NCBI GenBank assembly: GCA_020723855.1
Contig: DYIB01000006.1
Coordinates: 1-38,558 of the forward strand
Direction of reading: 5' to 3'
Length of the DNA stretch: 38,558 nucleotides
Source: Uliginosibacterium gangwonense
GTDB lineage: Bacteria > Pseudomonadota > Gammaproteobacteria > Burkholderiales > Rhodocyclaceae
A program made the position numbers and the translations under genes. Below, in pieces: positions 23,591 through 38,558 of this stretch. The notes under the pieces are model-generated. The model saw nothing but the letters and a program-made list of their open reading frames with translations. It made no database searches and was not told the origin of the DNA. Every line of letters starts with the position of its first letter. Positions within the stretch are counted from its first letter, which is position 1.

Positions 23591-24078
23591 GCACTCTCCT
23601 TTCTCGGCGACGCCGCGCTCCCCAACAGGAAAAGCACGACGCCCAGGACGATCGCCGAGTCGGCCAGGTTGAAGGCCGGCCAGTGCCAGCCGCCCAGATG
23701 AAAGTCCAGGTAGTCGAGCACTGCGCCGCGCGCCGCCCGGTCCACCGCATTGCCCAGCGCGCCGCCGAGGATCAGGCTGTAGGCGGCAGCCTCGCGCCGC
23801 CTGCCCACGCCGCGTAGGAGCAGGACGACCAGGCCGGCGGCAACGGCCAGTGCCACAAGTAGGAAGAAGGGGCGCTGCCAGCCGCCGGCGCCGGCGAGCA
23901 GGCTGAACGCGGCTCCCTCGTTCAGGACATGCACGAGATTGAAGAACGGCGTGACCGCTTCGCTGGCCCCGTAGGGCAACCACCCGGCGATCCACAACTT
24001 GGCGCCCTGATCCCCAAGGACGATGCCGGTCGCCGGCACCAGCCAGAGCCATCGCCTGCCGCCGGAGGAACCGATCAT
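23587..24078 (-). CDS. pbrC: Prolipoprotein signal peptidase (LspA family), PbrC-like
   Basis: VLGDQGAKLWIAGWLPYG...NEGAAFSLL...LGGALGNAVDRAARGAVLDYLDFHLGGWHWPAFNLADSAI. Confidence 0.88.
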   Translation of the reverse strand: MIGSSGGRRWLWLVPATGIVLGDQGAKLWIAGWLPYGASEAVTPFFNLVHVLNEGAAFSLLAGAGGWQRPFFLLVALAVAAGLVVLLLRGVGRRREAAAYSLILGGALGNAVDRAARGAVLDYLDFHLGGWHWPAFNLADSAIVLGVVLFLLGSAASPRKESA

Positions 24079-24680
24079 CGTCGCCCTCCGGTTTCCGTTT
24101 CGACATCGCGCCATGCGCCCACGAAGACAGCCAGCACAGCGCTCGCCAGGCCGACCAGGTATCCCGCCGCCACATCGGCGGGGAAGTGCGCGCCGAGCCA
24201 GACCCGTGACAGCCCGACGGCAAGCACGAGCAGCACGGCGGCGCCTCGGCCCCAGGGGCCGAGCAGCGGCCACAGGCTTGCCGCCAGCAGCGCCGAGAAC
24301 GAGGCATGGCCGCTGGGCAGGCTATATCCCCGCTCCCCTGTCCCCACGACATGAACGGTACCTGGGGTCAATACCGCCGCCGGCCGCGGGAAATCCAGCG
24401 CCAGCTTGAGCCCCGCCGTCACGGCGAAGGCGATGGCGGCGCCGACCAGCAGCCGCTTGAGCTGCCGTACCGCGGGGGGCGCCAGGGCGCTGTCCTCGTG
24501 CCGCAGCAGGATCGCGACGACCAGCCAGCTGCCCGCGACCAACGGCAGGTTCCAGTAGCTGCCCATGCGCGAGACCCATTCCATGACTTCGTCAAGCGGT
24601 CCGGGCCGTTGGAGCTGGATGGCCTGAAACAGCCACAGGTTGGCGCCGCCCCAGTCGTAGAGAATCGCCTTGAGCGTCAC
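24075..24680 (-). CDS. pbrB: PAP2-family phosphatase, PbrB-like (GTG start overlapping pbrA stop)
   Basis: LKLALDFPRP, YSLPSGHASFSALLAASL, RVWLGAHFPADVAAGY; lies between pbrA and lspA. Confidence 0.85.
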   Translation of the reverse strand: MTLKAILYDWGGANLWLFQAIQLQRPGPLDEVMEWVSRMGSYWNLPLVAGSWLVVAILLRHEDSALAPPAVRQLKRLLVGAAIAFAVTAGLKLALDFPRPAAVLTPGTVHVVGTGERGYSLPSGHASFSALLAASLWPLLGPWGRGAAVLLVLAVGLSRVWLGAHFPADVAAGYLVGLASAVLAVFVGAWRDVETETGGRR

Positions 24681-30737: not shown

Positions 30738-31481
30738 TCATCCGATCTTCCCCAGGATCGGAAAGCGTTCGAGCAGCCAGTAACTGAACTCCGTCAGCTT
30801 GCCCGTCACCATCGCGACACCCATCGCGACCATGACTGCACCCGCTACGATCTGCAGCGGGCGTCCCGCATGGCGCAGCGCCTTGAGGCGGCCGACCAGC
30901 TGGCGCATGAACACTGCCGAGAGCACGAAGGGCACGCCCAGGCCGAGGGCGTAGGCCGAGAGCAGCGCGATGCCGCCGGACACCGAGCCCTGCATGGCGC
31001 TGGCCGTGAGGATGGCGCCCAGCACCGGTCCGATGCAGGGCGTCCAGCCGAAGCCGAAGGCGATGCCGAGCAGGAGCGCGCCGGCCGGATGCCCGCCGGC
31101 CATGTGCGGATGGAAGCGCAAGTCCCGGTGAAACCACGTGACGTGTCGGAACAGCCCGAGCATGAACAGGCCGAAGGCGATGACGATGACGCCGCCGACG
31201 ATGTTCGCCTCGTGGCGGTAGCGCAGGAGCAACTGGCCGAGCGCGGTGACGCTGGCCCCGAGGGCGATGAACACGGCGCTGAACCCCAGCACGAAGAACA
31301 CACTCATGACGCCGGCGTGGGCTCGCGTACTCGCGCTCATTTGCAGCTGCGTGCCATGCAGCGACTGCCCGGCGATGTAGGACACATAGGCTGGTACCAG
31401 GGGTAGCACGCACGGCGAGAGGAAGGAGACGAAGCCGGCCGCGGTTGCGCCGGCCAGTCCCAGGGCGGACGTCTCGATCAC
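30738..31481 (-). CDS. ccdA: CcdA/DsbD-type thiol-disulfide transmembrane transporter (GTG start)
   Basis: GFVSFLSPCVLPLVPAYVSYIAG...FGFGWTPCIGPVLGAIL; GGAGGAG upstream of the GTG. Confidence 0.9.
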   Translation of the reverse strand: MIETSALGLAGATAAGFVSFLSPCVLPLVPAYVSYIAGQSLHGTQLQMSASTRAHAGVMSVFFVLGFSAVFIALGASVTALGQLLLRYRHEANIVGGVIVIAFGLFMLGLFRHVTWFHRDLRFHPHMAGGHPAGALLLGIAFGFGWTPCIGPVLGAILTASAMQGSVSGGIALLSAYALGLGVPFVLSAVFMRQLVGRLKALRHAGRPLQIVAGAVMVAMGVAMVTGKLTEFSYWLLERFPILGKIG

Positions 31482-31521
31482 GGCAAGCTCCTCCCGTTGC
31501 CTTGGCCCGGACCCGGTTTCA

Positions 31522-32337: not shown

Positions 32338-32648
32338 GGCGTCTCCTCCCGCTGCGCCGCGCCCTGCCGGGGCGGGCCACCGTTGCCGCCATGGCACTTG
32401 CCGCCCAGCCGGTTGGCGCACAAGCCTGCCGCGCACATGGCAGCGCAGGGGAGCAGGCCGACGGCGAACGAGGTCAGCCCCGCTGCCGCCAGCCAGTCCC
32501 ATCCAAAAAACAGTCTGGTGGTGACACCGGCAACCGTGAAGCCGATCAGGACGGTGCGCCGATCGAGTCTGGCGCGGGAGCCGATGAGCGGAAGACCGCG
32601 TCTTTCCGGCGGGCTGATGATGACTTGTTCCGATGTCTTCACGGTCAT
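32334..32648 (-). CDS. Small membrane protein of unknown function
   Basis: 104 aa with 2 predicted TM stretches, Cys/His-rich tail (CAAMCAAGLCANRLGGKCHGG); ATGA overlap with the DsbA-like gene. Confidence 0.6.
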   Translation of the reverse strand: MTVKTSEQVIISPPERRGLPLIGSRARLDRRTVLIGFTVAGVTTRLFFGWDWLAAAGLTSFAVGLLPCAAMCAAGLCANRLGGKCHGGNGGPPRQGAAQREETP

Positions 32649-32688
32649 TTCTCCTTTGCGTGATAATGCGTTCGAGGTTCGCTCCCCA

Positions 32689-36620: not shown

Positions 36621-37219
36621 GGGTGCAGCAGCAGAGCGAGATCGTGGGCGATGGTCTCGGGCGCGGCATCGCCGGAGATGTAGAGCCGCAGCCGCCCCTG
36701 AGGATCGAAGGCGAAGATCGCGGACTGATGGTCGACGGTGTAGAAGCCCGAAGCGTCGGGCGCCTGGCGCGCGAAGAAGACCTTGAAGTCCGCCGCCATG
36801 CGCGCCACCTCGGCCTCGCTGCCGCGCAGGCCGAGGAAGTCCGGACGAAAGGCGGGAACGTACTGCGCCAGCACCGCCTGCGTGTCCCGGGCCGGGTCCA
36901 GCGTCACGAACAGGCCCTGGACTCGCTTGCCCTCCTCGCCCAGGAGATCGATGCCCTGGGCCATCTTTGCCAGCGTCGTCGGGCAGACGTCCGGACAGTG
37001 GGTATAGCCGAAGAAGAGAAGCACTGCCCTGCCTTGGAAGTCCGCCAGGCGGCGCGGCCGGCCTGAGTGGTCGGTGAGTTGGAAGTCGCGACCCCAATCG
37101 ACGCCGGTGATGTCGGTGGAGCGAAAGGACTCCGCCTTCTTTCCGCAGGCCGGCAGCGCAAGAGTCAGCCCCGCCAGGGCGCCGAGGCGGAGCAGCTCAC
37201 GCCGGCGCAAGTCAGTCAT
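36617..37219 (-). CDS. sco: SCO1/SenC copper chaperone
   Basis: FFGYTHCPDVCPTTLAKMAQ...FYTVDHQSAIFAFDPQG. Confidence 0.93.
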   Translation of the reverse strand: MTDLRRRELLRLGALAGLTLALPACGKKAESFRSTDITGVDWGRDFQLTDHSGRPRRLADFQGRAVLLFFGYTHCPDVCPTTLAKMAQGIDLLGEEGKRVQGLFVTLDPARDTQAVLAQYVPAFRPDFLGLRGSEAEVARMAADFKVFFARQAPDASGFYTVDHQSAIFAFDPQGRLRLYISGDAAPETIAHDLALLLHP

Positions 37220-37679
37220 GGCGCCCTCCGTGCGCGTGAGGACCGTCGACGACGGGCAGGCTCAGGCTGATGATCCGGTTCGCGCCTCCGGCCTCGGTCA
37301 CTGTGAGGCGCAGCGCGACGGTGCCGCCCGGGCGCAGCTTGCCCCGCAGCCCGAAGAGCATGAGATGCGTGCCGCCGGGCGCCAGCTGGACCGGACGCCC
37401 CGCTGGCAGGTCGAGGGCCTCCAGCCGGCGCATGCGCATGACGTCGCCCTGCATCGACATCGTGTGGATCTGGACCGAATCGGCCACGTCGGATTCGGCG
37501 GCAACGACACGCGCGCCCTTCGGGCTTTCCAGCACCATGTACGCGGCTGCAACGGTTTGTCCAGGCACCGGGGCGACAACCCGCGCCTCATCGACTTTCA
37601 GCGCGTCCGCGGCAAAACCCGGCTGGGCGAGCGCGATGGCGCCGAACAAGAACATCGTCAGAAACTTCCTCTTCTGCAT
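37212..37679 (-). CDS. PCu(A)C periplasmic copper chaperone
   Basis: IHTMSMQGDVMRMRRLEALDLPAGRPVQLAPGGTHLMLFGL matches the H-x-M...M...H-x-M copper motif. Confidence 0.93.
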   Translation of the reverse strand: MQKRKFLTMFLFGAIALAQPGFAADALKVDEARVVAPVPGQTVAAAYMVLESPKGARVVAAESDVADSVQIHTMSMQGDVMRMRRLEALDLPAGRPVQLAPGGTHLMLFGLRGKLRPGGTVALRLTVTEAGGANRIISLSLPVVDGPHAHGGRHD

Positions 37680-37694
37680 GCGTTTGACATCTCC

Positions 37695-37769
37695 TCGTCG
37701 AGAGAAACGACGACCGATACGCAGCTATCCGCGCAACGGTCCCGGCGAAATCCGGTCGCTGCGTATCGG
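37695..37769 (-). repeat. Two abutting inverted repeats (6-bp and 12-bp perfect stems) upstream of the PCuAC gene
   Basis: TCGTCG(37695-37700)/CGACGA(37708-37713), then CCGATACGCAGC(37714-37725)/GCTGCGTATCGG(37758-37769). Confidence 0.8.
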
Positions 37770-37839
37770 CGAGTCAAGGCAGGCGGGGCGCGCTCAGCGG
37801 CCCATGGGCCACCGACCGAGCGTTCCGCCTAGGTGAGGA

Positions 37840-38193
37840 TCAGAGGAGACGGGGAGGTCGCCAGACCCCGAACGGATCGGGAGCGGCGATGAGAGGAGAG
37901 ACGCCGGTCCGCTGCTGCGCATCGGCAGTCATGGCTGGCATGGGCACAGCGGACGGCTGCATGAACTGAACGCCGCCGCATCCGCTGGCAACGCTACAGT
38001 GCGTCGCGCAGGCGTCGCCCGGCAACTGTCCGGAGCCACCGGAATGGTCGCAGCACGGACTCGACGCGCCCGCCTCTTCCATACTCATGTCTGCATGCGC
38101 AGGGCAGGCCTCCGGCACGACCGCAGCCGCGAGCCCGTAGGTCGGAACCGCGATGCTCAACAGCAGAATAAGAAGCAGGTGCCAGATGCGCAT
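37840..38193 (-). CDS. Cys/His/Met-rich small secreted protein, first gene of the copper operon
   Basis: Signal peptide; ACPAHADMSMEEAGASSPCCDHSG...CATHCSVASGCGG...PFGVWRPPRLL. Confidence 0.7.
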   Translation of the reverse strand: MRIWHLLLILLLSIAVPTYGLAAAVVPEACPAHADMSMEEAGASSPCCDHSGGSGQLPGDACATHCSVASGCGGVQFMQPSAVPMPAMTADAQQRTGVSPLIAAPDPFGVWRPPRLL

Positions 38194-38558
38194 GTAAGAA
38201 GGGCAGATTCTTCTTGTTGCGAAGAACTTATGTTGCAGGGCCGAATATTATCAAATTGCCGTTTTACGCACCATCGACAAGCCTGGAACTGGAAAGTTCG
38301 CCGGTTCGACTTCTCCGACGGAGTTCTGGCTGGCCGAATGGAATTCATGATAAGTGCCATTATCAAGAACGCCATTTTTCGCCGACAAGTTGGGCAATGG
38401 AGAATCGCCGTGCTGGAACGCCAAGCAAATCATGACCTTGGGCGAGCTTCCGGGCGCGCCCGGCTGTCGTTGCCGTTATGATCGGGCACGGCACCTGGTT
38501 GCTCGGGGTGAGGGTACCGGTCTCCAGCAAGTGCACAGACGATGCACTAACGGTACGC

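Follow-up and report, generated by a model that had tools for sequence, protein, structure and literature searches.

The leader gene and the copper operon

The window, by which we mean the whole 38,558-nt stretch of Uliginosibacterium gangwonense DNA that was analysed, carries near its right-hand end the ORF P0001 (37840–38193, minus strand), encoding a CutF/CopL-like leader protein of 117 aa with a signal-peptide-like N-terminus, a Cys/His-rich middle and the end FGVWRPPRLL followed by the stop codon. Read directly, the protein is MRIWHLLLILLLSIAVPTYGLAAA...CATHC...FGVWRPPRLL, the N-terminus being, as judged by eye, hydrophobic and then AAA. The middle contains a putative copper-binding CxxHC motif, C62-A-T-H65-C66 (37996–38010, minus strand), the counterpart of C69xxH72C73 in Rhodobacter capsulatus CutF, and its second Cys lies 45 residues before the Arg of WRPP. 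The R112-P113-P114 codons of WRPP (37852–37860, minus strand) form a putative ribosome-arrest motif; in the window and in all of the homologs described below, RPP is followed by three residues up to the C-terminus.

The leader agrees with several of the published rules for CutF-like proteins (PMC9973294), being shorter than 150 aa (117 aa), with Pro-Pro within the last 15 residues and a central Cys motif; the PCuAC gene follows 160 nt downstream. The leader gene itself is matched by no Pfam or NCBIfam family: P0001 is not matched by the CopL family NF033807, and DUF2946 (PF11162) gives no match up to E 1 in six leaders. Instead of the CruR-type CxxC and RAPP, the leader carries CxxxC and WRPP. 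The leader of the closest homolog, G1132, aligns with NF033807 over nearly the whole model, albeit at 18.3 bits, below the curated cut-off of 40. An HMM of six full leaders of the window type ranked CopL-type leaders first among 4949 ORFs taken from the other fetched loci (4e-16, 5e-12, 4e-5 and 3e-4). Since the HMM places CopL-type leaders at the top and the G1132 leader aligns along NF033807, we assign the protein to the CutF/CopL kind; as judged by its sequence, the Cys-rich gene is one encoding a leader of the CutF/CopL/CruR kind.

The first putatively regulated gene encodes a PCu(A)C copper chaperone (37212–37679, minus strand; Pfam PF04314, 6e-30), whose relatives suggest a host in the Burkholderiales. 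It is followed by genes for SCO, cytochrome c, DsbE- and TlpA-like thioredoxins and a CueO-like multicopper oxidase, as well as for a DsbA-like protein, more cytochromes, DUF411, two P-type ATPases and a protein with a DsbD N-terminal domain. The sequence-only reading of this DNA had counted 14 genes downstream of the leader–PCuAC gap, which it took to be the only large gap in the operon. The ORF list corrects both points: 17 further minus-strand ORFs, which may form one operon, extend down to 20502, and there are other gaps of 186 nt (32503–32688), 108 nt (31414–31521) and 926 nt (23751–24676), the 186-nt gap being without special structure (z +0.79).

Upstream of the leader lies a candidate operon promoter, the sigma-70-like TTGTCG-18-GATAAT (38359–38388, minus strand; a consensus match only). 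Within 38341–38388 (minus strand) the site overlaps a dyad, TGATAATGGCACTTATCA, which is a candidate operator for the whole operon. Further upstream of the copper operon, beyond the window on contig C53 (L077, 1964–15522), are genes for integrases, an actin-like protein, a TrfA replication initiator and a type IV coupling protein, together with mer genes (MerE, MerR family, mercuric-reductase-like). The integrases, TrfA, the coupling protein and the mer genes suggest that the copper operon resides on a plasmid-like or integrative contig.

Structure of the intercistronic RNA

The gap between the leader gene and the PCuAC gene spans 160 nt (37680–37839), and the minus strand is the coding strand. 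The sequence-only reading had described three inverted repeats here, and we located all of their arms where it had placed them. Element (i), GGCCCATGGGCC (37799–37810), is flanked by CGCTC (37791–37795) and GAGCG (37818–37822); while it is present as described, it proves to be the inner portion of a longer hairpin with an outer AGGCGG/CCGCCT stem that had gone unnoticed. This hairpin, stem I (37780–37831, minus strand), is separated from the leader stop only by the 8-nt linker UCCUCACC (37832–37839, minus strand). The perfect 12-bp inverted repeat CCGATACGCAGC/GCTGCGTATCGG (37714–37725/37758–37769, 32-nt loop) lies within a 13-bp hairpin, stem II (37713–37770, minus strand), which is strong in the window. 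Abutting the 12-bp repeat, stem III (37695–37713, minus strand) pairs TCGTCG (37695–37700) with CGACGA (37708–37713) across a 7-nt loop and, as had been proposed, runs into the PCuAC Shine-Dalgarno (SD) sequence: GAGGAG (37691–37696, minus strand) overlaps the stem by 2 nt.

The minus-strand gap RNA folds at -79.6 kcal/mol (z -3.38), with none of 200 shuffles as stable, which bears out the expectation of genuine RNA structure. When the leader tail is included (37680–37872), the domain reaches -96.4 kcal/mol (z -3.99, 0/200 shuffles as good) and its minimum-energy structure coincides with the centroid structure. The gap RNA matches no Rfam family. We rejected an origin of the gap as a repeat or mobile element, since a genome search at E 0.001 showed it to be single-copy.

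An 11/12 copy of the stem II 5' arm, CCGATGCGCAGC, occurs inside the leader gene (37914–37925, minus strand), and the stem II 12-mer has four matches in the window at up to one mismatch, compared with 0.33 expected. Leader positions 37914–37930 could pair with 37709–37725 at -27.9 kcal/mol, as against -25.5 kcal/mol for stem II. By these calculated energies the pairing is a possible competitor of stem II; it is absent from the predicted minimum-energy fold.

Conservation in homologous loci

Whole-genome searches added six loci from five other genera of the family, which makes, with the window included, seven loci (six of them distinct) in six genera. In all of them the leader ends in G[I/V]WRPPRxx and is followed by a gap of 160–197 nt and then by PCuAC, and the genes further downstream are largely those of the same operon. 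One locus, G139, begins inside the leader, so that only the last residues, AGIWRPPRIL, are visible. The homologous leaders carry CxxxC or CX5C, with 45–46 residues between the aligned Cys and the Arg. No close locus beyond the seven was found in the order and class, nor in the genera of the carrier genomes G139, G094, G1108 and G952; the plasmid databases contain no leader match, merely distant PCuAC and multicopper oxidase (MCO) matches. The distribution is patchy, with a single carrier species in each of the four carrier genera that were searched, which would suit a mobile island. Genome G1108 has two diverged copies of the leader–PCuAC operon on separate contigs (L073 and L076).

In an alignment of the seven gaps, stem I is kept in all seven loci, starting about 8–10 nt past the leader stop (z -1.2 to -3.8), while its loop sequence differs. 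Standard pairs are formed by 83% of the alignment cells, as compared to 40–48% when the partner is slid. Compensatory substitutions are found in stem I but are few, with both sides changed at 4 of 17 pairs, and the 12-bp stem is not conserved. Since the shuffle control is moderate (6/500 for pairing, 38/500 for pairs with double changes), we regard the covariation of stem I as suggestive rather than strong; seven homologs, six of them distinct, are too small a set for firm covariation. The 12-bp repeat was rejected as a conserved element, the stretch that holds stem II scoring z -3.1 in the window and +0.4 to -0.7, near zero, in the homologs.

More generally, RNA structure after stops of CopL/CruR-type genes shows a small excess (median z -0.8 vs -0.2, p 0.007), and because this excess is small we do not consider stem I to be a universal feature. 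Two loci of another genus with RAPP-type leaders before PCuAC (L046 and L049) have very long GC-rich hairpins just past the stop (z -7.8 and -4.5, respectively), without a T run.

Predicted pairing of the leader end with the PCuAC Shine-Dalgarno

In the predicted fold, the last three sense codons of the leader, CGU CUC CUC (codons 115–117; 37843–37851, minus strand), act as an anti-SD: they are complementary over 9 bp to the PCuAC SD region GAGGAGAUG (37688–37696, minus strand) and pair with it. This predicted closing helix encloses stem I, the 13-bp stem and the small stem III, giving a four-helix domain. The SD has an unpaired probability of 0.00, and opening it costs 7.8 kcal/mol, falling to 2.3 kcal/mol when the footprint of a ribosome at WRPP is masked. 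Only 4/100 shuffles of the leader end match the native leader end in this respect, and 4% of C+U-matched windows pair with the ribosome-binding site (RBS) as strongly as the anti-SD does. The leader tail is essential to this result: in the gap-only fold, SD occlusion in the window is ordinary and not above shuffles, and it becomes unusual only once the tail is included. Two simpler proposals were rejected, namely that the 160-nt gap alone occludes the SD (shuffles are as good) and that pairing of the SD with the C/U-rich linker is a general rule (it is strong in 4/7 gap-only folds, but not in that of the window).

The closest homolog, G1132, closes a domain of the same topology with other bases and a different RBS (z -3.50 for the domain): its leader end, CUGG CGACCUC CCCGC, forms a duplex with the RBS stronger than that of 99.5% of matched windows, although the SD-opening cost is unremarkable compared to shuffles. 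SD occlusion above shuffles was not seen in the other loci tested. In the more distant loci the duplex ranks at 15–60% among matched windows, and whole-domain folding of two of them gives z -1.4 and +0.4; across loci the position of the best SD partner shifts between -48 and +9 of the leader stop. Because these distant homologs show little or none of the effect, we limit the claim: the modelling supports a closing helix in the lineage to which the window belongs, but not universally.

A proposed copper-responsive leader-peptide switch and its alternatives

We see about an even chance that the gap supplies the RNA part of a leader-peptide switch responding to copper, in which ribosome stalling at WRPP frees the PCuAC SD. 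The short, exported Cys-rich leader encoded by the first gene would be sensed during its own synthesis. With no ribosome at the leader end, CGU CUC CUC would pair with the PCuAC SD and close the four-helix domain, so that PCuAC would be poorly translated. Binding of copper to CxxHC of the nascent chain would stall the ribosome with the Pro codons of WRPP in the P and A sites, and the footprint of the stalled ribosome would hide the three anti-SD codons, leaving the SD free and allowing PCuAC and the later genes to be made. If the geometry resembles that of CruR, P113 would occupy the P site and the leading edge, ~15 nt ahead, would end at the end of codon 117; a ribosome at WRPP would then lie over precisely the anti-SD codons without touching stem I.

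The computations themselves provide the leader family, the motif spacing, the hairpin shared by the loci and, for the window and G1132, the prediction of a closing helix; copper as the ligand, the stalling, the direction of the response and the effect on later genes are what we infer. That the downstream genes are copper genes counts for the switch, as do the likeness of the leader to CutF and the fixed distance of stem I from the stop; against it count the lack of base-for-base conservation of the closing helix, the difference of WRPP from the arrest-proven RAPP and RGPP, the small number of homologs and two published points taken up below, the absence of stalling by the CutF end in a reporter and the view of Roy et al. 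on long gaps. The sequence-only proposal of a cis-acting, copper-linked RNA element controlling the downstream genes is well supported in its outline. It had missed the anti-SD in the leader codons, however, and overlooked that the probable sensor is the nascent leader protein; the conserved RNA part is stem I and not the 12-bp repeat.

We tentatively suggest a compact variant of the switch, quite possible if short of probable, in which the anti-SD is written into the last leader codons, right beneath the footprint of a ribosome arrested at WRPP, and the gap hairpins serve to join the leader end and the distant SD. In such an arrangement the arrested ribosome would do the switching on its own and the unwinding of a separate stem-loop would be needless, which would answer how a stalled ribosome acts across a 160-nt gap.

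The main rival is a CruR-like Rho attenuator, as a C-over-G stretch recurs at the leader end in all six loci scored. According to this explanation, which we consider possible but rather unlikely, a rut site in the 3' half of the leader stays shielded as long as a ribosome is stalled at WRPP, and the end of the stall leads to Rho termination in the gap, the hairpins then being pause or 3'-end-protecting elements. In the window, a stretch of rut-like composition (C 46%, G 21%) covers 37830–37907 (minus strand); in each of the six loci the strongest such stretch of leader and gap falls between about -70 and +8 relative to the leader stop and ranks among the strongest of the locus, and the CruR rut site has been mapped to such a stretch inside cruR. 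The near-equal gaps (162 nt for CruR, 160 nt here), the identical Cys-to-Arg spacing of 45 residues and the stable hairpin directly past the stop in 7/7 loci point the same way. The stretch is not unique, however, as six other same-strand regions reach its level in 38.5 kb, and it may reflect the amino-acid composition of the leader. Rho attenuation is also disfavoured by CxxxC and WRPP standing in place of CxxC and RAPP and by the missing DUF2946 match, and it offers no account of why leader and SD are exactly complementary in the window and G1132. SD unmasking and Rho attenuation could also act together.

Stable hairpins just past a stop codon, one of them conserved (stem I), are what would be expected if they solely stabilised or processed the polycistronic mRNA, uncoupling leader decay from operon decay, and the leader took no part in sensing; this we find improbable, as it gives no account of the conserved CutF/CopL-like leader, of its three-residue tail or of why leader codons pair with the SD. 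The perfect dyads double as DNA palindromes and could form an operator or an internal PCuAC promoter, but such a DNA-level element is very improbable: the gap has no sigma-70-like site, by a simple consensus, so that the internal promoter named as an alternative to RNA structure was not found, and the dyad sequence is not conserved in homologs. Least credible of all is a metal-binding riboswitch with the RNA itself as copper sensor. A stable structured RNA does precede the copper genes, but it has no Rfam match, its sole conserved part is a simple hairpin with a varying loop, the inner stems are not conserved and a probable protein sensor is encoded directly upstream.

Copper-sensing leader peptides are reportedly widespread, and CutF activates whereas CruR represses; by which route leaders with long gaps reach the start site of the next gene is the question that this locus addresses. 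It yields a base-level prediction, codons 115–117 against the PCuAC SD. If the leader-peptide switch is real, a single leader peptide would control a large copper operon, with as many as 17 genes, on a contig that resembles a plasmid.

Comparison with known systems

This kind of switch is already known and the window locus would be a further case, the gap being most likely the second half of the switch. In cutFOG of R. capsulatus (PMC9973294, PMC8456105), CutF is a 118-aa protein with C69xxH72C73 and the end PEPEGPPPRL (PMC8456105). In response to copper, which slows its export, it opens in cis a structure that shields the SD; with an intact SD-shielding stem it requires its Cu-binding motif, Pro-rich end and signal peptide, but without that stem none of them, and the CutF end caused no stalling in a reporter (PMC9973294). 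The window leader is similar in its near-equal length (117 vs 118 aa), CxxHC motif and Pro-Pro-Arg-Leu end, and in its place as the first gene of a copper operon with a PCuAC chaperone and a multicopper oxidase; SD shielding is predicted strongly in the window and, as a duplex, in G1132, but not above shuffles in the other homologs. It differs in having PCuAC as the next gene, across a 160-nt gap with several hairpins, and in carrying WRPP instead of the GPPP of CutF; moreover, the anti-SD is predicted within the final codons of the leader, whereas that of CutF belongs to a stem-loop of the gap. CopL (NF033807), the cis-acting leader of Xanthomonas copper oxidase genes, shares the protein architecture, as well as the xRPPx end seen in the fetched CopL-like leaders, but precedes a different gene; the G1132 leader scores under the curated cut-off and the window leader has no match.

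In Bordetella pertussis CruR (DUF2946), 45 residues separate CxxC from RAPP, which stands three residues before the C-terminus; the gap measures 162 nt and the regulation is Rho-based (PMC9426467). The arrest of CruR, with two Pro codons in the P and A sites, was located by toeprint (PMC12992588). Roy et al. consider gaps this long to be incompatible with translational coupling (PMC9426467). Both leaders are encoded by the first gene of a copper operon, and both have the 45-residue spacing, the three-residue tail, a long structured gap and a C-over-G stretch in the leader, whereas CxxC and RAPP are particular to CruR, in which copper represses through Rho. Finally, the RAPP/RGPP arrest peptides (PMC12992588, PMC10951233) are likewise small proteins with a near-terminal Pro-Pro, whose genes precede, among others, those for PCu(A)C; in the window leader the Arg directly precedes Pro-Pro (WRPP), rather than being followed by Ala or Gly as in Arg-Ala/Gly-Pro-Pro.
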